A stretch of DNA of 64,000 nt. Origin: Polycladomyces zharkentensis (GTDB taxonomy: Bacteria > Bacillota > Bacilli > Thermoactinomycetales > JIR-001). Where the stretch lies: contig NZ_JAFHAP010000001.1 of NCBI RefSeq assembly GCF_016938855.1, forward strand, positions 1 through 64,000. The letters run 5' to 3'. Of the stretch, positions 14,754 to 52,939 are shown in pieces (positions within the stretch are counted from its first letter, which is position 1; each line of letters starts with the position of its first letter). A program made the position numbers and the translations under genes. The notes beneath the pieces are model-generated. The model had not been told where the DNA came from, did no database searches, and saw nothing but the letters and a program-made list of their open reading frames with translations.

Positions 14754-17700
14754 CTACTCCGTCGTCGCTTCCGTATGCCGATTCCGCGCCAACCGGTCTC
14801 TCATCCGTGTGAGCATGCTGTACATAATCGGAACGATAAAGAGGGTCAACAGAGTGGAGGAAGTCAGCCCCCCGATCACCACAACGGCCAATCCCTGTGA
14901 TATGAGTGACCCTTCACCATAACCCAGACCCAGTGGCAACAGGGCGAACACGGTGGCCAGCGCTGTCATCAGAATCGGTCGCAACCGGGTACCTGCCGCC
15001 TCCAACAGCGCCGAGCGGACGTCCAGACCACGTGCCCGTTGTTGCTGAACCCTGTCGATCAGCACGATCGCGTTGGTGACGACGATGCCGATCAGCATCA
15101 GCGCTCCGATCATCGCGGATACACTGATCGGCTGATCCGACAACCACAAACCGATCAAACCGCCGATCACAGCATACGGCAAGGAAAACAGGATCGTGAA
15201 CGGAGCAGTCGCTTCGCCAAAGGTAACGATCATCACCAAGTAGACGGCGGCCACAGCCACTATCATGGCCACTCCCAGCTGGCCAAAGCTTTTCTGCATC
15301 TCCTCCGTGTCGCCCCCCAGCGTTACCTTCACGCCGGACGGCAGTTTCACCCCGTTGATGATTTGCTGGACTTGCCGTGACAGCGCCCCTGTGTCCTTGC
15401 CGATCACGTCGCCGGAGACCTGGGCATACTGAGAGCCGTTTTCCTTTTGAATGGTGACAGGCCCCTGCTCAACCCGGACGGAGGCGATGTCCCCCAAGTT
15501 GACCATTTTGCCTGTCGGGGTCAACAATTGAATGGCTTTCAATCGCTCAACGGAGTGCAGGTCCTTGTTTTCCAACCCCAGTTTGATCTCCTCAGTCTGG
15601 TTCCCATTCTCCAGCTCGCCTACTTTGTCCGCCTGCAACAATCCGCGAATCGACATCGCCACCTGCATCGGCATCAAACCGTGTTGGGCCGCTTTGGCCT
15701 CATCGACATGGACGGTAACCAGTTCCTTTTGTTCACTCAGGTTGTTGGTCACGTTGGTAAGACCGCTCACATGCTTCATTCTGTCCGTCAGGATGTCGGC
15801 CGTTTTCCGGATGTCCGCCATTCGTTCCCCTTTGATGATCGCAACAATCTGGCTGGAAGGCGGTCCGATGCTTTTCACTTCGGATACTTGCAGTTCACCG
15901 TTTCCTTTGATTTTCCTTAAATCGTTTCGCACTTGGGACAAGAAACGGTCCATGTCCGTATCCGGATCGAGGTTGGCAAACAGGGACACCTTGTTGGTGC
16001 TGCCGATCGTACCATCCCCTGCCAGCTGTCCGCGCAAGTTGCCCACGGTCGTGGACACTTGCTTTACTTGGGGATAGGCGCGTAATTTCGCTTCCAGCTT
16101 GCGAGCCTGGGCGTCGGTGGTACGCAAAGCGGTCCCCGGCGGCAATTCCAGTTTCACTTGCAAAGCTTTGTCCTTTTCGGACGGAAGGAAGCTGGTTCCC
16201 ACCAACGGGATGAGAAACAGACTGGCGACAAGTGCCAAGGTGGACACCGACAGAACGATACCTTTGTGATCCAGTGCCCATGCCAACGCCCGTCGGTAAC
16301 CGGCCGCCATTCCGCTTTCCTTCTCTTTGAAGCGCCGCCGTTTTCCTTTGTTCAAGAGCATCAGTTTCGCCATCAACGGAACGACCGTGACGGCGACGAT
16401 CAGTGAACAAAGAAGGGCAAACACCACCGTCAGCGCAAACGGCAGAAACACTTTGCCGACGATGCCGCTCACCAATCCCAACGGTACAAATACCGCCACC
16501 GTCGTGAGGGTGGAAGATGTGATGGCCGCCCCCACTTCCTTGGTGGCACAGGCGATCAGATCGACGGTTCGCTCGCGGTTTTGCATCAAGTGGCGGTAAA
16601 TATTTTCAATCACGACGATGCTGTCGTCCACCACGCGCCCGATGGCAACAGCCAAACCGCCCAGGGTCATCACATTCAACGTGATGTCCGCCTGTTTAAG
16701 CAAAATCAGCGTGGCCAGCACCGACAGCGGAATCGAGACGACGGCGATCAATGTCGTTCGGAAATTGCGCAAGAACAAGAGAATCACAACGGACGCAAAC
16801 AGTGCACCCAACAAACCTTCCCGCACCATTGTGTGAATGGACGCCTTCACCGCACGCGACTGATCAAACAGCAGTGTGAATTGCACATCGGGATTCTGCT
16901 TTTTCAGCGTCCTCAGTTTGGCCGAGACCGCTTCAGCCGCTTCCACGATGTTGCCGTCGGGGTCCTTGATCAACTCGATGTTGACCGACGGCTTCCCGTT
17001 CATACGCGTAATCACGGTGTTGTCATGTCGCGATTCGCTGATGTCGGCGATCTCGGACAGTTTGACCGTCTGAATTTGTGCTTCCTTGATTTCCGGTTTG
17101 CCGCTTGTTTTCGGTTGCTCCCCCATTCCGCGCGGGACTCCGCCTGCTGGTGCCCCCTTGGGTTGCGGCATCTGCTTTTGCAGTTGGCTCAGCTGTGCAT
17201 TGAGCTGTTTCAGCGCTTGCATCTCGGCGGCCACTTTCGGTTTCAACTGCGCCACCTGTGCGGCTGCTTCCTGATCCTGCGGGTTTTGCTTGAGCCGCAT
17301 TTCCGCGGCGTTAAGTGCGATTTGATCCCCCAACAGCTGTGCCTGCAGTTGCTGTGCCGCCTGCAAGATCCGCACCTGAGCCTGCAACAGCCCCACACCT
17401 TGGCCCACTTCACCCAATCCCCGGCCCAGTTGACCCATCGACTGGCCCAGTCCGCCGACAGCCTGACCCAATCCCTGCATGCCTTGGCCGATCTGGTTGA
17501 AGGCATCCTCCATCCCTTCCTGCGGATTGGGTTGGATGGTGAGGCGCAGATTTCTCAGTTGATCCACCGACGTGATCTTCTGATCCACCCGCACCGGCAA
17601 GTCCAACCGACCGGATGACAGTTCGCCCACCGGGATGGAAACGTTGCTCGCTTGGAGCGCTTGTTGGACCTGTTGCGCCGTCAGGTTGTACTTTTTCAGC

Positions 17701-18272
17701 TGATCCTGCTTCAGCCGGACATACACCGCTTTGGGTCCCTGCCCCTTGATCTGCACCTGACCCACGCCATCCGCTGATTTCAGGATTGGTTCAGCCGTTT
17801 CCTTCACCCATTTTTCCAGTTCGTCCGGGGTTTTGGTTTTGCTCGTCACCCCCAGAATCATGAACGGAAACGTGTTGAACCCGAACCGGCTGAACGACGG
17901 TTTCATCGCACCGTCCGGCAGGGAAACACGGTCGATCGCTTCCTGCATCTCCTGCTTGGCCTTGTCCAGATCCGTGTCGAAATCATACTCCACGACCACA
18001 ACCGAGGTGCTGTCCGCAGACACCGAACTGATCTTCTTGGCTCCGGCGATTCCCTGCAACGATTGCTCGATCGGCTGAGTTACTTTTTGGTCGACGTCCT
18101 GCGGCGACGCCCCCGGATACGGCGTGATCACCACGATGACCGGGAACGTGATGTCGGGCATCGCTTCCATTTTCAGCTGTGTTGCCGTATACAATCCACC
18201 AAAGGTGACCAGCAAAACCAGGATCAGCACGGCAGCGGTGTTTCGCAGGGAGAACCGAGTCAGTACGCTCAC
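14754..18272 (-). CDS. swrC: SwrC/AcrB-type RND efflux transporter
   Basis: Proton-driven inner membrane RND pump of the HAE family, related to B. subtilis SwrC (surfactin and drug export). Starts at GTG 18272, with AAAGGAGGGG upstream, giving 1172 residues. TM1 (about 12-30), two large extracellular loops and helix clusters near 440-620 and 940-1110 are evident. TM4 carries the family signature GLAVAIGRVVDDSIVVIE. Odd feature: about 140 residues (about 253-395) rich in Gly, Gln and Leu, beginning GQGMQGLGQAV, interrupt the loop that in AcrB links the docking subdomain to the conserved LRDVA-like strand (here LSEIADI). The insert looks like a coiled coil. Preceded by a tetR gene, 29 bases away. 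Confidence 0.88.
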   Translation of the reverse strand: MSVLTRFSLRNTAAVLILVLLVTFGGLYTATQLKMEAMPDITFPVIVVITPYPGASPQDVDQKVTQPIEQSLQGIAGAKKISSVSADSTSVVVVEYDFDTDLDKAKQEMQEAIDRVSLPDGAMKPSFSRFGFNTFPFMILGVTSKTKTPDELEKWVKETAEPILKSADGVGQVQIKGQGPKAVYVRLKQDQLKKYNLTAQQVQQALQASNVSIPVGELSSGRLDLPVRVDQKITSVDQLRNLRLTIQPNPQEGMEDAFNQIGQGMQGLGQAVGGLGQSMGQLGRGLGEVGQGVGLLQAQVRILQAAQQLQAQLLGDQIALNAAEMRLKQNPQDQEAAAQVAQLKPKVAAEMQALKQLNAQLSQLQKQMPQPKGAPAGGVPRGMGEQPKTSGKPEIKEAQIQTVKLSEIADISESRHDNTVITRMNGKPSVNIELIKDPDGNIVEAAEAVSAKLRTLKKQNPDVQFTLLFDQSRAVKASIHTMVREGLLGALFASVVILLFLRNFRTTLIAVVSIPLSVLATLILLKQADITLNVMTLGGLAVAIGRVVDDSIVVIENIYRHLMQNRERTVDLIACATKEVGAAITSSTLTTVAVFVPLGLVSGIVGKVFLPFALTVVFALLCSLIVAVTVVPLMAKLMLLNKGKRRRFKEKESGMAAGYRRALAWALDHKGIVLSVSTLALVASLFLIPLVGTSFLPSEKDKALQVKLELPPGTALRTTDAQARKLEAKLRAYPQVKQVSTTVGNLRGQLAGDGTIGSTNKVSLFANLDPDTDMDRFLSQVRNDLRKIKGNGELQVSEVKSIGPPSSQIVAIIKGERMADIRKTADILTDRMKHVSGLTNVTNNLSEQKELVTVHVDEAKAAQHGLMPMQVAMSIRGLLQADKVGELENGNQTEEIKLGLENKDLHSVERLKAIQLLTPTGKMVNLGDIASVRVEQGPVTIQKENGSQYAQVSGDVIGKDTGALSRQVQQIINGVKLPSGVKVTLGGDTEEMQKSFGQLGVAMIVAVAAVYLVMIVTFGEATAPFTILFSLPYAVIGGLIGLWLSDQPISVSAMIGALMLIGIVVTNAIVLIDRVQQQRARGLDVRSALLEAAGTRLRPILMTALATVFALLPLGLGYGEGSLISQGLAVVVIGGLTSSTLLTLFIVPIMYSMLTRMRDRLARNRHTEATTE

Positions 18273-18301
18273 ATACGCCCCTCCTTTGACCAATATGTCA
18301 A

Positions 18302-18928
18302 TCAATCATCGTCCGTTCCCCCGCCTGTTTTCACCAGACCGAACAATGTAATTTCCATCAACGGATCAATATGCTCCGGTGTAATCATGTTTTCGTTATC
18401 GAGTGCACCGTACAACACACTGAAAAACATCCGCTCCGCAACCTGAGGGTCCACGTCGCGCAGTTCCCCCTTGCGAACCCCCTCTTCGATCAGGCGGCGA
18501 AAGGGCACAAACATATGTTGCTCGTAATGGGACATCACTTCTGTGGCTTCATCTGGAAATACGACACGCAGATTGCGGGAGATGGTAGTGTGGAAATAGG
18601 TGATTTCCGGATGTTGCAGTGCCTGTACGCACATCTCCTTCAAGTATCGCGCCAGTCGTTCGGCAACGGGCAAATCGGCGTCCAAGATTCCCTTCGCACG
18701 TTCCTGCCATGCCTCCAATGTATGACGGATGAGTGTCAAAAACAAATCCTTCTTGTTGCGGAAGTAATAATAGATCAATCCGCGTCCCAGGCCTGCCACG
18801 CGGGCAATCTCCCCAATTTCGGCTCCGTGATATCCCCGTGCGCGATATACTTTTAACGCGGCATCCAGTATCTGCTGAATACGCTTTTCCCGTATGGCCG
18901 CATTTTGCTCGGGTGTTCGCGGCGACAT
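18302..18928 (-). CDS. TetR-family regulator
   Basis: 208-residue repressor with an N-terminal helix-turn-helix (residues about 15-60: IREKRIQQILDAALKVY, then LIYYYFRNKKDLF) and a C-terminal ligand-binding helical domain. It sits directly upstream of the RND pump on the same strand and most likely represses both. Ribosome binding site GAGGTGG. A TGACA-N4-TGTCA palindrome lies just above its start within the promoter region. Confidence 0.92.
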   Translation of the reverse strand: MSPRTPEQNAAIREKRIQQILDAALKVYRARGYHGAEIGEIARVAGLGRGLIYYYFRNKKDLFLTLIRHTLEAWQERAKGILDADLPVAERLARYLKEMCVQALQHPEITYFHTTISRNLRVVFPDEATEVMSHYEQHMFVPFRRLIEEGVRKGELRDVDPQVAERMFFSVLYGALDNENMITPEHIDPLMEITLFGLVKTGGGTDDD

Positions 18929-19029: not shown

Positions 19030-19150
19030 GGACATGTCCGGTGAATCTGTCCGCATCGTTTTCCGAGTTCGCTCCAACTGCCCTGCCGGTAAGCAGATGA
19101 TGACCGCTCCGACCCTGAGGACAGAACGCGGGCAAAGTACGCTTCGCTTG
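19030..19150 (+). repeat. F2 repeat, copy a
   Basis: Member of a dispersed repeat family. Shared pieces, in order: GTCCGGTGAATC, TTTTCCGAGTTCGCTCC, then GAACGCGGGCAAAGTACGCT. Similar strings recur near 34740, 39300, 44540 and, reversed, 45280. It encodes nothing recognisable. Confidence 0.5.
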
Positions 19151-19407
19151 GAGGAATCCTGGCGATTCCATTCCTGTGCATTCCATTTGTCTTCACTCGG
19201 TCGAACTTGAAGGAGTCATGGCGCCTGATCCACCGAAAAGCGGTTAGGATCAAGACGAATGGCCAATGGCTATGTGTCTGGAAGGAGCCACCGCACAGAT
19301 GTGGTTCTATCAGTCCCAAGTGAAACCGTGGAGCAGGCGTATGGGTGAGCAACCAACTTGAGGATGATCCGGACGGTACTCGGGTGAATTTTATCGTTCA
19401 ATGAAAA

Positions 19408-19512: not shown

Positions 19513-19794
19513 GTGACTTGCCCACACGGCCGAAGAACCGGCGTCACTCCCTTTGGTTTGACCTTCTTACTTCATCCGGCGTGACAGCCCGCATTCATCC
19601 AATGGCTTCATCCAAGTCCGTGTGATTTTCATTTCACGGGCTTTTGCTCGCCTGGCAGCTTTCAGTGTTTGCGCATTTCTCGACTCGTTTGTACCCACAT
19701 TCGGCCGGTGCGAGAGGGACCAACCCCTCCCACGTCCGACGTCCGCTTTCATCCCATCCCCGAAAGGTTGGGTTTTCCCGCTCGCTCTTCATAA
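19513..19794 (+). repeat. F1 repeat, copy A
   Basis: About 282-bp copy of repeat family F1. It runs from GTGACTTGCCCACACGG to the end module GCTCGCTCTTCATAA. It matches the 35.0-kb copy through GCTTCATCC, TTTTGCTCGCCTGGC, GCGAGAGGGACCAA and CTTTCATCCCA. The distal part forms the hairpin before GGGTTTTCC. The C-terminus of the neighbouring minus-strand membrane protein gene lies inside it. Confidence 0.8.
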
Positions 19795-26716: not shown

Positions 26717-26806
26717 GTGACTTGCATCACACGGCCAAAACACCGGAGCACTCACTTTGGTCCCGTGGCGTGGCAACCCACGTCCATCCACGACCGCTTT
26801 CGTCAT
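26717..26806 (+). repeat. F1 repeat, partial copy E
   Basis: Contains only the left portion of F1: GTGACTTGC, CACACGGC, CACCGGAG, CTTTGGTC and ATCCACGACC. It lies between hprK and the ABC ATPase gene; the right hairpin module is missing. Confidence 0.6.
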
Positions 26807-29406: not shown

Positions 29407-29806
29407 TCCTCCTTTTGATTGCTACCGTATATATTCTACCCTTCCGAGGATCATGGAGACACTTCTTTTTGCCTTATTCCCGGCATAATCCATTGGTGAA
29501 CGTTTTTGGGAAATGTGTGTTGCTGACAACAAAACCCGGCTGAGGTGGAACGGATCTCCAATTACCCATTGATTTCATTTCATACCGCGTCTTTTGCAGG
29601 CGAACTTTCGTTGTTCAAGCATGGAGTTGCAGAGCCGGCGGCACATGCCCAGTGTCCTTTCCATCTTCTCGATTTGCTCTTTCGTTGGTTTCAGCCTGAA
29701 TTTGCAGGTTCTCATCACCGTGATCGACTCTTTGTACGGTCTTTTTCTTGTATGTTACGTGATTCTACCGGCATTTTCAGAATGGATCAGAATTACTTGG
29801 AACAAT
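29407..29806. other. intergenic, probable decayed sequence
   Basis: No supported gene. A hydrophobic plus-strand frame (from about 29650) runs into the F1 repeat without a clear ribosome binding site. It partly resembles the middle of F1, so it is probably repeat decay. Confidence 0.35.
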
Positions 29807-29910
29807 GTCGGACTTGATAGAGCTGAGACCCTCCCGCGTCCGACGCTCGCTTTCATCCCAACCCTAAAAGGCCGGGTCAAGGGCTGGGTTTTCCCGCACG
29901 CTCTTTATAA
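29807..29910 (+). repeat. F1 repeat, right-end copy B
   Basis: Right-hand part of F1: GTCGGAC ... GTCCGAC hairpin, then CTTTCATCCCAACCC and the terminal GCACGCTCTTTATAA. It contains an extra 10-base duplication around GGGTCAAGGGCTGGG. Left portion absent or too diverged. Confidence 0.65.
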
Positions 29911-34729: not shown

Positions 34730-34862
34730 GGCAAATATCACCTGATACTTTTCCGGCTCGATCCACCCGCACCCGCAAGGAAGCAACGCAAGACGCTCCA
34801 AACGTTCAGGCTCAGGACGCGGCCAACGTACGCTTTTCCAAGAGGAAATTGCCCACTATTCC
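34730..34862 (+). repeat. F2 repeat, copy b
   Basis: GTCCGGCAAAT, then TTTTCCGGCTCGATCCACCC, GCAAGGAAGCAACGCAAG, GGACGCGGCCAACGTACGCT and AGGAAATTGCCC. It is the best preserved F2 copy together with the 39.3-kb one. Confidence 0.55.
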
Positions 34863-35008
34863 ATTACTGAGCTTTATCAATGTACAATCGGGTTGGGGCT
34901 TGTCACTGCATGGAAAAACAATGCCCCTTTTGGAATGACCAGACACTTCTTTACCGATTCACAAAACAGCCCGTACCTTTGTTATTGCGGTACGGGTACA
35001 TCCACCAT

Positions 35009-35298
35009 GTGACTTGCCCCACACGGCTGAAGCACCGGAGGCACTTCCTTCGAACGCTGTGAGCTTCTCGCTTCATCCGGCGTTAGCCCACCTCCATCCA
35101 CGATGGCTTCATCCAGGCGCGGGTGTTTTTTCGTTTCACGAGTTTTTGCTCGCCTGGCGGTTTTCAGTGTTTTCGCCCTTCACGACTCGATGGTACCCAA
35201 ATGCTGTCGGACTTGCGAGAGGGACCAAGCCCCCCGCGTCCGACGCTCGCTTTCATCCCAATCTTGAAGGGTTGGGTGTTTACGCTCGCTCTATATAA
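35009..35298 (+). repeat. F1 repeat, full copy C
   Basis: About 290 bp, the most complete F1. Left end GTGACTTGCCCCACACGG; internal ATCCACGATGGCTTCATCC and GAGTTTTTGCTCGCCTGGC. Hairpin arms GTCGGAC and GTCCGAC enclose GCGAGAGGGACCAAGC. A second stem-loop (CCCAATCTTGAAGGGTTGGG) is followed by the terminal GCTCGCTCTATATAA. The right end provides the last codons and stop of treA. Confidence 0.8.
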
Positions 35299-36965
35299 AA
35301 AGCCACCGATTCATATGGACGTAATTTCAGATGGTGCAATTGGTTTTCCGTGTCCGGATAATTGGATATCAATATGCGATGCCGCCCGCCAAGATTGAGA
35401 TGCTCAGGCAAATGAAAGGTCGTTTCCACCCCGTAAAAGTTGTTGATCACCAACAGCGTTTCCTGACGATAGTGACGGAGATACGCATAGATGTGGGGAT
35501 GGTCTTCCAAAATCCATTCATAATCCCCATAGGCGATCACATCGTATTCTTTGCGTAACCGGATCAGTTTTTGATAGTGATAAAAAATCGAATCCGGGTC
35601 CTTTAAAGCTTGTTCCACATTGATTTCCTCATAGTTGGGCGCGAGACCAATCCACGGGGTTCCACTCGAAAAGCCTGCATTCTCTTCACTGCTCCATTGC
35701 ATGGGCGTACGCGCATTGTCCCGTGATTTTTGCTTCAAGGCGGCCATCACGGTTTTCTCGTCTTTTCCCTGCGCCCGCAGCAGATGATAGGCATTGATGG
35801 ACTCCACATCCCGATAATCCTCGATATTGTCAAAACAGGGATTGGTCATGCCGATTTCTTCTCCCTGATAGATAAAGGGAGTCCCCTGCAACAAGTGGAT
35901 GGCGGTTGCCAGCATTTTGGCCGATTCCTTATGGTACTTCCGGTCATCGCCAAATCGGGAGACCACCCTCGGTTGATCATGGTTGCACCAAAACAGGGCA
36001 TTCCATCCTCCGCCCCGCTGCATTCCATATTGCCAATCGCTTAAAATCCTTTTTAATCGGAGAAAGTCAAAATCAGCGGCGACCCATTTTTCCCCGTTCG
36101 GATAATCTACCTTGAGATGATGGAAACTGAAAACCATGTTCAGTTCCTTTTCATCCGGATGGGTGTATTTGATACAGTTTTCAATTGTCGTCGAGGACAT
36201 CTCTCCCACCGTCAGAAGCTCAGGATTCCCGGCAAACACGCGTCGGTTCATTTCCTTTAAAAACTCGTGTATACGCGGGCCGTCCGTATAGAATTTGCGT
36301 CCGTCGTCCAATGGCGTTTCCAGCGTATCATCGGGGAAACGCTGATCCTTGGAAATGAGGTTGATCACATCCAGCCGAAATCCATCCACGCCCTTGTCGA
36401 TCCAGAATCGCATCATTTCATAGATGCGCTCGCGAAGCTCCGGGTTCTCCCAGTTCAAATCGGCTTGTGTCACATCAAACAAATGCAGATAATACTGCCC
36501 CGTTCGTTTATCATACTGCCATGCACTCCCGCCGAATTTGGATTGCCAGTTGTTTGGCGGTCCTCCATTCACTCCGTCTTTCCAAATGTAGAAGTCACGA
36601 TAGGGATTTTCCCTCGACCTGGCCGAATCCCGGAACCATGGATGTTCGGTGGAAGTATGGTTCACCACGATATCCATAATCACTTTGATCCCTTTGTCAT
36701 GCGCCTGCTTAAGGAGTCTTTCGAATGTCTCCATCGTGCCGTATTCCGGATTGATCCGGTAATAATCACTGATGTCATAACCGTTATCCCTTTGCGGGGA
36801 TTCATAGATGGGCGTCAACCAAATCACGTCGACCCCCAATGTTTTCAGATAGTCGAGCTTTTCGATGATCCCCTGCAGATCGCCCACACCGTTCCCGGTC
36901 GTATCTTTGAAGCTCTTCGGGTAGATTTGGTACACGACTGCTTTTTTCCACCAGGGTTGCGTCAT
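35280..36965 (-). CDS. treA: TreA/TreC, trehalose-6-phosphate hydrolase
   Basis: Cleaves trehalose 6-phosphate, delivered by TreP, to glucose and glucose 6-phosphate. 561-residue GH13 enzyme. Catalytic nucleophile Asp in GFRLDVINLI, acid/base Glu in TVGEMSS, third Asp in WCNHDQPRVVSRFGDD. YQIYPKSFKDTTGNGVGDL and GYDISDYYRI are also typical. Starts MTQPWWKKAVVYQ. The natural end appears to be near VAFYI; the last residues ERA and stop codon come from the inserted F1 repeat. Second gene of treP-treA. Confidence 0.95.
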   Translation of the reverse strand: MTQPWWKKAVVYQIYPKSFKDTTGNGVGDLQGIIEKLDYLKTLGVDVIWLTPIYESPQRDNGYDISDYYRINPEYGTMETFERLLKQAHDKGIKVIMDIVVNHTSTEHPWFRDSARSRENPYRDFYIWKDGVNGGPPNNWQSKFGGSAWQYDKRTGQYYLHLFDVTQADLNWENPELRERIYEMMRFWIDKGVDGFRLDVINLISKDQRFPDDTLETPLDDGRKFYTDGPRIHEFLKEMNRRVFAGNPELLTVGEMSSTTIENCIKYTHPDEKELNMVFSFHHLKVDYPNGEKWVAADFDFLRLKRILSDWQYGMQRGGGWNALFWCNHDQPRVVSRFGDDRKYHKESAKMLATAIHLLQGTPFIYQGEEIGMTNPCFDNIEDYRDVESINAYHLLRAQGKDEKTVMAALKQKSRDNARTPMQWSSEENAGFSSGTPWIGLAPNYEEINVEQALKDPDSIFYHYQKLIRLRKEYDVIAYGDYEWILEDHPHIYAYLRHYRQETLLVINNFYGVETTFHLPEHLNLGGRHRILISNYPDTENQLHHLKLRPYESVAFYIERA

Positions 36966-39291: not shown

Positions 39292-39440
39292 GTGCGTCTG
39301 TCCAGATCGTGTGCATGATTTTCCCGGCTCGCCCGACCTGCATCCGCAAGGAAGCAACGCAAGGCCGCTCCGAACCGGAGACGCAGAACGCGGGCATAGT
39401 CTTCGCTCAAAAAGGACATGCCCGCTGTGGGCTCCTGCAC
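39292..39440 (+). repeat. F2 repeat, copy c
   Basis: GTCCAGATC, TTTTCCCGGCTCGCCCGACC, GCAAGGAAGCAACGCAAGGC, then AGAACGCGGGCATAGTCTTC. It shares an 18-base identical core with the 34.7-kb copy. Lies between uvrA and treR. Confidence 0.55.
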
Positions 39441-39555
39441 CTTTCCGAACCGATGCCCGGTCGGGCTTGATCCATCGCTCGCCCGGGAAAACATGGCCGC
39501 CTGAGGGAATGGTCAGGCACAGCAGAGACGGAAACAAACCACTTCCCTTTGGATC

Positions 39556-45034: not shown

Positions 45035-45169
45035 ATCTGATCACAATAGCTGCCAATCATACCAGACGTGTCCGGTAAATCCATGAAGGATCAAAAGTTT
45101 TCCCAGACAAGCGACAGACACGCCCTGCCGGGCGAAGACCCGAAAAGCGCAGAAGGGAATCACGGGCAA

Positions 45170-45288
45170 TTTCCTTAGAGCATAGCGTACTTTGCCGGCA
45201 TCCCGCACTTACCGGGGCGGAGCGCCATGATCTGCTTGCTTGCTGGACACGGGTGGAGCGAGCCGGGAACGGAATTGGACCGTATTCA
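45170..45288 (-). repeat. F2 repeat, reversed copy e
   Basis: On the minus strand: TTCCCGGCTCGCTCCACCCG, GGCGCTCCGCCCC, GCCGGCAAAGTACGCTATGC and AGGAAATTGCCC. A second start-like string, GTGTCCGGTAAATCC, lies on the plus strand at about 45067, so two partial elements may face each other. Confidence 0.55.
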
Positions 45289-48246: not shown

Positions 48247-49332
48247 TCAATGGGAAAGGTACAGAACAGGGTTGACCGCTTTCTCTCCCAACCGCACCTC
48301 AAAATGGAGATGCGGACCCGTGGAAAAACCGTTGCTGCCAATCCCGGAGATGCGCTGTCCCCGCTTCACTTCGTCGCCTTCATGCACCAAAACCTGATTT
48401 TCGTAACTGTGACCATACCAGGTAAAAAGGTCTTGTCCCCCTTTTTTCCCGTGGTAAATGACAATAATCCAACCGTAGCCGAGTGACGGCCCGCTTCTCA
48501 CCACCACTCCGCCGGCCGCCGCATATACCGGATCGTTGTAGTTTCCGTGGATGTCGATCCCCATATGCGGTCGCATCACCCCTTTGAGCGGGTGGACGCG
48601 CGGTCCATACGGGGACGTGATCTCATGACTGTTGGCAGGCCAACGAAGAGGGCCGCCCTCGTACGGAAAGGACAACCGGCCACTGTGCAGCAAGCTGAGA
48701 TTGATCCGACGCACTTCGTCTTCTTTGATATCTTCCAACCCCTCCAGCTCGGCAAGCCGTACCCGGTTTTTCTTCAGGTCGGCCAACATTCGGTCATATG
48801 CCGCTTTGGCTTCTTCGGCTTTCTTTTTTTGTTCGGCCTTCAATTGAACCAGTGAGGATTCGTAACGGGTTTTGGCTTGCTTCCATTTAAAATAAGAGTC
48901 GAACAGGTTCCGATCCTGTTTGACGATCAGGCGCATCGTCTCAAAACGGGTGAGAAACGCCTGAAAGGAATCGGCTGTCAACAAGGTGCGCATGAAGCCG
49001 AAATCCCCTTGCTCATACAAACGGCGAACCCGTTGTTTGAAAATGGCTTGCTGGCGGGTCAACTTTGCGTTGATCTGACGGATCTCTTGCTGCGTCCGCA
49101 GAATCTCGTCATCAATTCGGTAACTTTCTTTCTCCAAACGTTCCAGCTCCGCCTGGTTGGCTTTCATCTTCTCGTTCAACTGTTTGATTTTCCCCTGCAC
49201 CTGTCCTTTTTGCTGACGTACCTGATTGAGCTCACTCTTCGATTTCACTGCTGAGGAGGGAACCGCCCATGCCGGAGAAGAAATGAACAGTCCCAAGCAA
49301 ACCGCTGCCGCCAACAGGATTCCTTTCCGCAT
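48247..49332 (-). CDS. secreted coiled-coil M23 (LytM) peptidase 1
   Basis: 361 residues from ATG 49332 (GGAGG about 10 bases upstream). Cleavable signal MRKGILLAAAVCLGLF to AWA, then a long coiled coil (about 30-230) like EnvC/CwlO stalks. The C-terminal LytM domain (about 255-361) has zinc ligands in HMGID and HLHFEV. Probably a peptidoglycan endopeptidase or an FtsEX-controlled activator. Catalytic residues are intact, unlike EnvC. Distal gene of the ftsEX-M23 group. Confidence 0.88.
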   Translation of the reverse strand: MRKGILLAAAVCLGLFISSPAWAVPSSAVKSKSELNQVRQQKGQVQGKIKQLNEKMKANQAELERLEKESYRIDDEILRTQQEIRQINAKLTRQQAIFKQRVRRLYEQGDFGFMRTLLTADSFQAFLTRFETMRLIVKQDRNLFDSYFKWKQAKTRYESSLVQLKAEQKKKAEEAKAAYDRMLADLKKNRVRLAELEGLEDIKEDEVRRINLSLLHSGRLSFPYEGGPLRWPANSHEITSPYGPRVHPLKGVMRPHMGIDIHGNYNDPVYAAAGGVVVRSGPSLGYGWIIVIYHGKKGGQDLFTWYGHSYENQVLVHEGDEVKRGQRISGIGSNGFSTGPHLHFEVRLGEKAVNPVLYLSH

Positions 49333-49567
49333 CTTTCTCTGTTCCTCCATCTCTCCTGGTTGTGCTGATTTTCTTCTCTGTGAGTGGCCTTTTTCCCGCC
49401 CACTCCCGCAACGGTCGCGTTCCGGAAAAAGGCCACTCTGCTCATGGAGCTGATCCCTGCAGGTAACGGATCGGATTTTGCAGATGTATGCGAGGACCCG
49501 GCATTTTCCGCGATCACCTGGCCGCAGCATCCGTTTGCCCGCACTCACGCGTACCGAACTATGCCCA

Positions 49568-49712
49568 TCCAACATGGTGAAACCGCCTGATCCAGAATGA
49601 CGGCCCGCCGTAGCCGCTTGCGGGGTGACTTTCCTTCACCGCAGCAGCATGAATCGGTGTGCCATGGGTCCGTCGAAATCGACTCCTGCCTCCCGGTAAC
49701 GGGATGAACACA
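49568..49712 (-). pseudogene. decayed M23 peptidase fragment
   Basis: Three frames in succession spell pieces of a LytM domain: VHPVTG (near 49692-49710), EAGVDF, then HGTPIHAAA and ESHPASGYG. These match the order in the neighbouring M23 genes (HPVTG, GVDF, PIYAAASGKVIE, PSNGYG). Multiple frameshifts, so it is a relic of a further paralogue, located just upstream of the intact M23 gene 1. Confidence 0.6.
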
Positions 49713-50061
49713 CCCATGTTCCCGCTCTTTTCTTCTGATCCGTCTTGATTTCCCCGTAACGATACGCCTGCCGGCCCTCCCGAAACACCAGACTGAGCAC
49801 CATCACCCCTGTCTACCCTCCTCGATTCATTCCATCCTCTCCTTGCGCGTGATCCTTTTGTCTGTATCGTTATTCTCTTCGAATATTCCCTCAAAATGGA
49901 ATCCAGTGTCAAAAAGGTGTTTCCATTCGCATGTTTTGAATGCTGCCATTCAGCGAATGAATCAGTATGTGCATTGTCCGTCTGATCGAACCATACCAAC
50001 TCTGGACACGCCCTGGACGTGGCCACCGGCTCTCGTTTCGCTACACATCAATGTGATACTT
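49713..50061. other. intergenic
   Basis: No supported gene. Minus-strand open frame here is the diffuse upstream continuation of the decayed M23 fragment and shows no family resemblance. Confidence 0.35.
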
Positions 50062-50417
50062 TTATGAAGAGCGTGCAGGAAAACCCATCCCTTCAGGGTT
50101 GGGATGAAAGCGAGCTGTGCATTGAGCTGTTTCAGCGCTTGCATCTCGGCGGCCACTTTCGGTTTCAACTGCGCCACCTATGCGGCTGCTTCCTGATCCT
50201 GCGGGTTTTGCTTGTCCGACAGAATTTTGGTGCAATCGAGTCAAGAAGTGCGAAAACACTTAAAACTGCTATGCGAGCAAAAACTCGTGAAACGAAAATT
50301 GCCCAGGCATGACGAAACCATCGTGGATGGATGTGGGCTGCCACGCCAGATGAAGCGAAAAGACCACGACGACCAAAGGGAGTGCCTCCGGTGCTTCAGC
50401 CGTGTGGGGCAAGTCAC
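50062..50417 (-). repeat. F1 repeat, copy D carrying a swrC segment
   Basis: Reversed F1 copy: right end TTATGAAGAGCGTGC at 50062, left end GTGACTTGCC on the minus strand at 50417. Where other copies have one GTCGGAC arm and the loop, this one has 102 bases (50113-50214) identical at 101 positions to 17191-17292 in the RND transporter gene. The single change turns a CAG codon into TAG. Junctions show short shared bases (AGC at one side). Confidence 0.85.
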
Positions 50418-50424
50418 GAAAAAA

Positions 50425-50523
50425 GTCGACCCGTTCCCGGATCGGCAAATGGTTGATCGATTGTGTTCCTGTTGGATTTTTCATCCACCACCGATAATAT
50501 CTTGGGCCACCGGGTGGGTCGAC
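50425..50523 (-). terminator. long-loop terminator after M23 gene 2
   Basis: GTCGACCC (50425-50432) pairs with GGGTCGAC (50516-50523) across a long loop, with TTTTTT following on the minus strand. A homologous structure follows M23 gene 3 at 51717-51805. The F1 copy D begins immediately after the T run. Confidence 0.55.
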
Positions 50524-50547
50524 TTGTTGCTTGATTGAGACAATGGA

Positions 50548-51612
50548 CTATCTCGACAGATAATACACAGGATTCTGCAACTTGCCGTTTTTCCGCACTT
50601 CGAAGTGGCAGTGCGGGCCGGTGCCGGTGCCGTTGTTGCCCACTTCCGCGATCTTTTGACCGCGAGCCACGCGATCACCCACATTGACCGTCACCGTGTT
50701 GCCATACATATGAGCATACAAGGTGGACAATCCGCCGTGGTCAATGACAACAATCCACCCATATCCGCTGGACGGACGGCTTTCGATCACCTTCCCGCTG
50801 GCCGCGGCACGAATGGACGCTCCCATCGGGCAACCAATGTCCACACCATCATGGTGTTTGTATCCCCCCGTCACCGGGTGTGGCCGCCAACCGAAGGGGG
50901 ACGTGATCGGCCCGTTGCACGGTCTCGACAATTTTCCGCCACTCCACATCCCACTGCTGTAAGCCAGCTCTGCGTTGATCTTGTCCAGCTCTTCCTGCTT
51001 GATTTCTTCTTCTTCCTCCAGTTGGCTCAACGCCTTTTCGTGCTGTTTCACCAAGGTGACAATCTTTTGATATTCTTCATCCGCCTTGGCCTTTTCCTCT
51101 TTCAATTTGTTTTGCTCCGCCAACAACCTTTGCTGATCCTTCTCTTTTTTCTCCCAGGCCTCGAAATAATGATTCAACAGGGTACGGTCCTGTTTGACGA
51201 TCAGGCGGACCGTCTCAAATCGGACCAGGAATTCGTTGAAGGATTCGGCTGAAAACAAGGCCTTCATGTATCCCATGTCGCCTTTCATGTAAATCTCGCG
51301 GACTCGTTGTTTGAAGATGGCCGCATGCTGATTGAGTTCTTTTTCCGCTTTCCGGAGATCTTTTTTCGCTTTCTCCACCTTTTTGTTCTGTTCGTCCAAT
51401 TTTTTCTCCAGCTCATTCAGTTTTTGTTCCCTGGCATCCAGTTGCTCCTTCACCTTTTCCAGATCCGCTTCCTTCTGCGACTTCCGGTTCCGAATATCCT
51501 GCAATTCCTTTTTGGTCTTGTCCACTTTGCTCTCCGCGTTCACCCCGTTGACCGTCAGCCCGCTGAAAACCAAGCTGACAGCCAATACCATTGCAAGCAA
51601 CGTGCGCTTCAT
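50548..51612 (-). CDS. secreted coiled-coil M23 (LytM) peptidase 2
   Basis: 354 residues. Signal MKRTLLAMVLAVSLVFSG, coiled coil about 28-220 rich in Lys/Glu/Gln, LytM domain with ligands in HHDGVD and the HxH of PHCHFEV. Nearly identical over its first ~220 residues to peptidase 3, indicating recent tandem duplication; the catalytic domain has diverged more (CMGAS- versus CMGSP-type loops). Ribosome binding site GAGAGGG. Has its own terminator downstream. Confidence 0.9.
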   Translation of the reverse strand: MKRTLLAMVLAVSLVFSGLTVNGVNAESKVDKTKKELQDIRNRKSQKEADLEKVKEQLDAREQKLNELEKKLDEQNKKVEKAKKDLRKAEKELNQHAAIFKQRVREIYMKGDMGYMKALFSAESFNEFLVRFETVRLIVKQDRTLLNHYFEAWEKKEKDQQRLLAEQNKLKEEKAKADEEYQKIVTLVKQHEKALSQLEEEEEIKQEELDKINAELAYSSGMWSGGKLSRPCNGPITSPFGWRPHPVTGGYKHHDGVDIGCPMGASIRAAASGKVIESRPSSGYGWIVVIDHGGLSTLYAHMYGNTVTVNVGDRVARGQKIAEVGNNGTGTGPHCHFEVRKNGKLQNPVYYLSR

Positions 51613-51716
51613 TCAACCCTCTCTCCATATGTTTTTTTCAGGTGTCAACGAAAACCGTCGGGGACTTGCCCGGCATCTCGTTTGATCACCGAATACTAAA
51701 AATACTATATAAAAAA

Positions 51717-51805
51717 GTCGACCCGCTCCCGGATCAGGACGGATGCCCCGTTCGCATTTCCTGCATCTATCCCGGCGTTTGATTGAACCAATCGGGCGGG
51801 TCGAC
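51717..51805 (-). terminator. long-loop terminator after M23 gene 3
   Basis: GTCGACCCGC pairs with GCGGGTCGAC (51796-51805) around about 70 bases, followed on the minus strand by TTTTTTATATAG. Homologous to the structure after M23 gene 2, so the duplicated unit comprised gene plus terminator. Confidence 0.6.
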
Positions 51806-51835
51806 TTATTGCTGGATTTGAAAAAGGAAGAATGA

Positions 51836-52897
51836 TTACCTTAAATACTTCGCCGGATCCTGCAATCTTCCGTTTTTCCGCACTTCAAAGTGAAGGTGCG
51901 GTCCGGTGGAACGCCCGTTGTTCCCCACTTCCGCGATTTTTTGACCGCGAGCCACGCGTTCACCCACATTGACCGTAACCGTGTTGCCATACATGTGAGC
52001 ATACAAGGTGGACAATCCGCCGTGGTCAATGACAACAATCCATCCATACCCGTTGGACGGACGGTTTTCGATCACCTTTCCGCTGGCCGCGGCATAGATC
52101 GGCGATCCCATTGGACAGCCGAAGTCCACGCCTTCGTGGAATTTGGCTTCCCCGGTCACCGGGTGAACGCGCCAACCGTAGGGGGACGTCATCGGTCCGT
52201 CGCACGGACGTGACAAATATCCGCCATTCCACAGGCCGCGGCTGTAGGCCAATTGCGCGTTGATCTTGTCCAGCTCTTCCTGCTTGATTTCTTCTTCTTC
52301 CTCCAGCTGGTGCAAAGACGCTTCGTGCTGTTTCACCAAGGCGACGAGCTTTTGATATTCTTCATCCGCCTTGGCCTTTTCCTCTTTCAATTTGTTTTGC
52401 TCTGCCAACAACCTTTGCTGATCTTTCTCTTTTTTCTCCCTGGCTTCGAAATAATGATTCAACAGGGTGCGATCCTGTTTGACGATCAGGCGGATCGTCT
52501 CAAAACGGACCAGGAATTCGTTGAAGGAGCCGGCTGAAAACAAGGCCTTCATGTATCCCATGTCGCCTTTCATGTAAATCTCACGGACTCGTTGTTTGAA
52601 GATGGCCGCATGCTGATTGAGTTCTTTTTCCGCTTGCTGGAGATCTTTTTTCGCTTTCTCCACCTTTTTGTTCTGTTCGTCCAATTTTTTCTCCAGCTCA
52701 TTCAGTTTTTGTTCCCTGGCATCAAGCTGTTCCTTCACTTTTTCCAGATCCGCTTCCTTCTGTGACTTCCGGTTCCGAATATCCTGCAATTCCTTTTTGG
52801 TCTTGTCCACTTTGCTCTCCGCGTTCACCCCGTTGACCGTCAGCCCGCTGAAAACCAAGCTGACAGCCAATACCATTGCAAGCAACGTGCGCTTCAT
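51836..52897 (-). CDS. secreted coiled-coil M23 (LytM) peptidase 3
   Basis: 353 residues from ATG 52897, following CAGGGAGAGGG; in-frame upstream ATG ignored. Same architecture as peptidase 2: signal, coiled coil, LytM with HEGVDFG and PHLHFEVRKNG. Zinc ligands complete. The tandem pair differs mainly in the last third, so the enzymes may cut or localise differently while sharing a stalk and presumably the same FtsX partner. Confidence 0.9.
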   Translation of the reverse strand: MKRTLLAMVLAVSLVFSGLTVNGVNAESKVDKTKKELQDIRNRKSQKEADLEKVKEQLDAREQKLNELEKKLDEQNKKVEKAKKDLQQAEKELNQHAAIFKQRVREIYMKGDMGYMKALFSAGSFNEFLVRFETIRLIVKQDRTLLNHYFEAREKKEKDQQRLLAEQNKLKEEKAKADEEYQKLVALVKQHEASLHQLEEEEEIKQEELDKINAQLAYSRGLWNGGYLSRPCDGPMTSPYGWRVHPVTGEAKFHEGVDFGCPMGSPIYAAASGKVIENRPSNGYGWIVVIDHGGLSTLYAHMYGNTVTVNVGERVARGQKIAEVGNNGRSTGPHLHFEVRKNGRLQDPAKYLR

Positions 52898-52939
52898 CCA
52901 ACCCTCTCCCTGTGTTGTGTTCTTCCAGTTGTCCACGGA

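Follow-up and report, generated by a model that had tools for sequence, protein, structure and literature searches.

Palindrome-associated transposable elements (PATEs) are archaeal elements described from Haloquadratum walsbyi (PMC3119063). As characterized in the portions of that report drawn on here, they are short and protein-less, lack terminal inverted repeats, carry palindromes near their termini, have a short 5′ target motif, and possess ends in common with IS605/IS1341-type elements, and in these respects they resemble F1, a dispersed repeat of the bacterium Polycladomyces zharkentensis in which the near-terminal palindromes are putative (PMC3119063). Small repeats insert within PATE palindromes, as a second dispersed repeat (F2) does in F1; the same portions describe core deletions and nested repeats but no host-gene pieces, whereas F1 copies hold such pieces (PMC3119063). 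A PATE-like element of Halanaerobium hydrogeniformans is similar to F1 in its size of about 271 bases, its left-end hairpin, and its full right end, but it keeps the last 58 bases of tnpB, is present as one copy, and is presented, in the part of the account used, with no host-gene piece (PMC7290912). In Borrelia, IS605 stem-loops near lipoprotein genes are, according to the relevant part of that study, hairpins that occur apart from the transposase and are joined to host genes; there the hairpin lies beside the gene, whereas in F1 the gene piece lies inside the element (PMC2775950). Plant Pack-TYPE transposons are, like F1, non-autonomous DNA elements with host-gene pieces between their ends, although the sections cited emphasize efficient capture and shuffling of coding DNA, whereas each captured form of F1 was found once, with no spread (PMC8903248). 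No report of host-gene pieces inside PATEs or IS605-type MITEs was found among the open-licence literature matches listed.

The window, that is, the whole stretch of DNA analysed, comprises 64,000 nucleotides at the start of one P. zharkentensis contig. A preliminary description had proposed that one F1 copy in it holds a piece of an RND transporter gene located 33 kb away, and we compared this locus with the remainder of the genome (G000) and with two congeners (G001 and G002).

Kinship of F1 with tnpB elements

The left end of F1, including a palindrome that we call hairpin 2, and its right end also flank tnpB at C2:22061-23588 and C8:546848-548243, and the ORF of the former contains OrfB_IS605, Cas12f1-like_TNB, and HTH_OrfB_IS605 domains as judged by domain search. 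Left ends with no paired right end precede tnpB sequence on C20, on C21 (where the tnpB differs), and in the window, where the start of a truncated tnpB (about 29570-29830) comes after an F1-type left end (29830-29910, minus strand). Elements begin directly after TT[T/G]AT, an anchor found in 50 of 81 elements and visibly misplaced in a few of these. Their right end reads ...CAAGTCAC with the terminus AGTCAC, after which the flank is unrelated (58 rows, selected by that end). The short target motif is therefore fixed at the left end and no target duplication is seen, given TT[T/G]AT on the left, unrelated flank on the right, and an empty site in G001. The target of ISDra2 is TTGAT. Palindromes near the termini are visible both in the sequence and in predicted folds, the z-scores of which are modest (−0.72 and −1.43). 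Because its ends are common with tnpB elements and because it starts after TT[T/G]AT and ends in AGTCAC, F1 is very likely a short, protein-less, PATE-like derivative of an IS200/IS605-type tnpB element, with a capture from the RND gene in one copy. This kinship was absent from the preliminary description.

End pairs assigned by a left-right pairing rule number at least 48 in the P. zharkentensis genome and at least 33 in the two congeners, these counts being lower bounds because each search (in P. zharkentensis, with F1 and with its two parts) scored no more than 40 candidates per genome and query, out of as many as 132. P. zharkentensis has dozens of F1 copies yet no full-length match to a Y1 transposase, with three partial matches in its genome and several full ones in G002. 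F1 has no match in Rfam, and none was found in plasmids and phages at an E value of 1e-5. Covariation gave no support to F1 as a structured RNA: three of 40 predicted pairs had changes on both sides, and the covariation term was unfavourable.

The short form has a central part of about 90 bases, in which TTGGTACAAT is conserved, that was not seen on reading the tnpB elements. PATEs with guide RNAs have reportedly been described in Geobacillus. The short-form middle, GTGCGAAAACACTTAAAACT...CGAGCGAAAACTCG, recurs with other left ends in other genera of the order (L132-L136), in two of which it adjoins a hairpin and a TATAAT-like box; it may be a guide-RNA gene that stands by itself and has a promoter of its own. 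Separately, the tnpB element on C2 contains an ORF for a 59-residue ribbon-helix-helix protein (L071:573-752, minus strand) that is divergent to tnpB and matches Antitox_RHH with an E value of 7.8e-06, just below the Pfam cut-off. The same stretch also occurs at C17:6280 and on C20.

The F1 copy with a piece of the RND gene

By BLAST, alignment, and consensus, the F1 copy in question spans 50066-50417 on the plus strand. It had been delimited as 50062-50417; the right bound stands, and the left bound moves because TTTAT at 50061-50065 constitutes the TT[T/G]AT-type insertion site directly before the element, as indicated by the consensus of the 50 left-anchored elements, the sequence itself, and the empty site in G001. 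At 352 bases and with no tnpB sequence, the copy is too short to encode a transposase. Its left-end palindrome (hairpin 1, 50086-50106) is intact, although weakly predicted as a DNA fold (z-score −0.72). The RND piece follows at 50113-50214. It replaces two parts of hairpin 2, the left arm and the loop, whereas the right arm, GTCCGAC, survives at 50214-50220. The remainder of F1 (50214-50417) includes a TTGGTRCAAT-like motif (50227-50236) that alignment reveals to be conserved in the short form and that may have a promoter role, and its last ~115 bases correspond to the right end of tnpB elements, presumably a guide-RNA scaffold. Other window features used for comparison, all on the minus strand, are a copy with an ordinary hairpin 2 (35009-35302), a further copy (19513-19794), and a right-end remnant of an F1-type element (26717-26806).

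A repeat search of the window places 50113-50214 and 17191-17292 in one 102-base family (99%), with identity at 101 of 102 bases. A BLAST search of the whole genome (3.32 Mb, 22 contigs) for 181 bases that include the RND stretch, in which all 11 candidates were scored, returned two matches only, and that to the F1 place at 50113-50214 had an E value of 3.9e-46. Both the near-identity and the replacement of one hairpin arm plus the loop relative to other F1 copies, as originally reported, are borne out.

The gene at 14754-18305 (minus strand) clearly encodes an AcrB-type transporter (ACR_tran, PF00873, E value 1.7e-230), and the shared stretch at 17191-17292 lies in its coiled-coil insert at about residues 338-372. 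This stretch is present in the RND genes of both congeners, once each among the matches listed, and the P. zharkentensis gene agrees with that of G001 at 97 of 102 positions and with that of G002 at 93 of 102. At the one mismatched position it is F1 that has the derived base, A instead of the G found in all three RND genes. Because the RND genes of both congeners hold the stretch and the mismatch is derived in F1, the proposed direction of capture, from RND into F1, is supported. The claim of a recent event likewise agrees with one change in 102 bases, against five in 102 between the RND genes of P. zharkentensis and G001. The captured copy postdates the divergence of the three species. In the reading frame of RND the F1-side change creates the stop codon TAG, so the piece is, as read from its sequence, not kept as protein. 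The orientation had been given as sense, which is wrong or at best ambiguous: the left-to-right direction of F1 is that of the plus strand, whereas RND is encoded on the minus strand, and in the F1 direction the captured piece is consequently antisense to its source gene.

The right flank in G001 reads TTAT followed immediately by GAAAAAGTCGACCCG, with F1 absent. However, about 580 bases of the left flank in P. zharkentensis do not align to G001 and align only partially to G002, so that of the two sides of the G001 empty site just the right one is clean. An assembly error that fused the RND piece to F1 could be envisioned for a draft genome of 22 contigs in which F1 is repeated, but one base distinguishes the piece from its source, the RND stretch has no further copy, a second case involving purL carries six differences, and the right flank agrees with G001. 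We therefore assign an almost negligible probability to such an error. As a separate observation on this neighborhood, 48247-52936 (minus strand) contains three neighbouring M23 peptidase-type repeats that all share DNA, two of which were identified by domain search as M23 with a PcsB coiled coil.

Further inserts and the position of hairpin 2

The preliminary description had suggested looking for gene fragments in F1 copies elsewhere, and the genomes contain at least two more copies with cellular-gene sequence. The F1 copy at C4:439072-439416 (minus strand) contains 86 bases matching C3:32369-32454, within purL (NF002290). The purL gene on C3 is also on the minus strand, and the piece is again antisense in the F1 direction. 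The two agree at 80 of 86 positions, whereas purL of P. zharkentensis differs from that of G002 at one of 86 and from that of G001 at five, and alignment places all six changes on the F1 side. The captured piece has one copy besides its gene in the genome. In both congeners the corresponding site is empty, lacking this F1 copy as well as the 480-base repeat next to it. That repeat (G000:C4:439430-439908) is arranged head to head with the F1 copy that holds the purL piece, has a right-end motif in common with F1, and occurs in many copies in G001 (90-93%). The other case is an element of G001 (C1:139385-140215) in which F1-type ends surround a 632-base insert with an intact gene for a 156-residue AHSA1-family protein (PF08327, E value 1.5e-17).

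F2 occupies the same place as the captures in two F1 copies (C8:630843 and G001:C1:2715357). This repeat also has copies in the window at 19048-19184, 34748-34946, 39320-39520, and 45067-45269. Thus, among the at least 81 end pairs of the three genomes, three contain cellular-gene sequence and two another repeat, and the concern that F1 copies elsewhere might never vary at this site is countered. When coverage was assessed against tnpB elements and the consensus, six of 77 elements shorter than 1400 bases had an uncovered stretch of at least 25 bases (four elements of at least 1400 bases were left out); one of these stretches, of 40 bases, was judged to be diverged F1, and the other five are the RND, purL, AHSA1, and two F2 inserts. 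These comparisons indicate that separate F1 copies carry host-gene pieces, and no multiplication of the RND or purL piece with its element was found in the P. zharkentensis genome. We also considered larger captures before right ends that have no left end, with an extra 5-8.5 kb at C11, C4, and C8, but rejected them because no convincing left end was present. A weak 21-base left-end match (L270:5163, E value 0.001) lies beside an older right end.

Hairpin 2 of other F1 copies reads GTCGGACGC...AAGTCCGAC and occupies positions 56-95 of the 293-position consensus. The left junctions of the five inserts, determined partly by eye, fall at about 55, 76-80, 78, 85-88, and 100 of the consensus, and all are therefore in or near this hairpin. 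Five of five junctions within 55-100 would be expected about once in 10,000 if positions were uniform over the element (hand arithmetic) and about once in 100 if only the interior from 55 to 170 tolerates inserts. The clustering serves only as a hint because the interval was picked after the data had been seen. Several F1 copies have deletions with one end at hairpin 2, and two right ends that have no left end start in its right arm (C11:126077 and C11:246984). The DNA fold of this region in an ordinary copy is not exceptional (z-score −1.43). Hairpin nucleases such as SbcCD cut palindromes.

Possible origin and role of the inserts

We consider it likely that the RND piece was copied into hairpin 2 of a tnpB-derived, PATE-like F1 when damage to the hairpin was healed by trapping an ectopic copy, a repair step that we infer. 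Hairpin 2 would have stalled replication or been broken, the damage would have been healed without homology by Ku-type end joining or template switching, and a short ectopic DNA copy would have been trapped as filler, with no loss from the source gene. Because that gene is intact, the insert stems either from a copy of it or from a stray fragment. Ku is encoded in all three genomes, which makes end joining plausible. Within G000:C8:329250-330861, the Ku gene (C8:330319-330861) has a decayed F1-type copy at a distance of about 1 kb.

The joints of the RND piece had been taken to suggest template switching or micro-homology repair. By eye, they share only three bases (AGC) on the left and one (G) on the right, overlaps that often arise by chance; neither process is therefore favoured, and the claim is weak. 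Replication template switching at the hairpin, with no double-strand break, would account for the intact source, the sharp ends of the piece, the three bases shared at the left joint, and the hairpin at the junction. Against it stand the single base shared at the right joint, an RND source 33 kb away, and a purL source on another contig, and it explains the 632-base AHSA1 insert no better than end joining does. We give this route rather less than an even chance as an account of the RND insert, and between a break-repair step and template switching the choice is about even.

A TnpA-type transposase or a guide-directed TnpB event might instead have brought the gene piece into the element, given that F1 belongs to a tnpB family and that Y1 transposase matches exist in the genus. 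This route is unlikely because the source pieces have no element-like ends and because the Y1 matches in the P. zharkentensis genome are just three and partial. Moreover, when the 16-base flanks of 45 right ends were compared with the RND and purL regions, no match with two or fewer mismatches was found. We therefore regard a transposase or TnpB origin as very improbable. Flank matches with three mismatches were examined as candidates for a guide-directed origin and rejected, as they fall outside the captured parts and have no TTNAT neighbour.

Whichever form the proposed hairpin repair took, the captured piece most likely has no function. It might be retained as an antisense RNA that targets the mRNA of RND (and of purL), since both gene fragments of this genome are antisense in the F1 direction and the RND match is near-perfect, but two of two in one orientation has a probability of 1/4 by chance. 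In addition, a promoter scan of 49500-50600 listed no promoter-like site upstream of the piece, which itself precedes the conserved −10-like motif, each captured form occurs once, and there is no sign of selection, the purL copy at 80 of 86 suggesting that the pieces drift. An antisense role thus seems to us a very slim prospect.

A far broader proposal is that protein-less elements derived from tnpB act as a low-rate trap for gene pieces in bacteria, with hairpin 2 as a break hot spot that repeatedly takes in 90-600 bases of host sequence, on occasion an entire gene, thereby generating new mobile cargo or antisense RNAs as a bacterial counterpart of Pack-TYPE transposons; we judge this unlikely. 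Small mobile elements of bacteria can acquire host-gene bits, probably as accidents of DNA repair. If several separate host-gene captures did take place at one hairpin, they would provide a datable record of how hairpin damage is healed in bacteria, and they would represent a route by which IS200/IS605-type elements may gain cargo.
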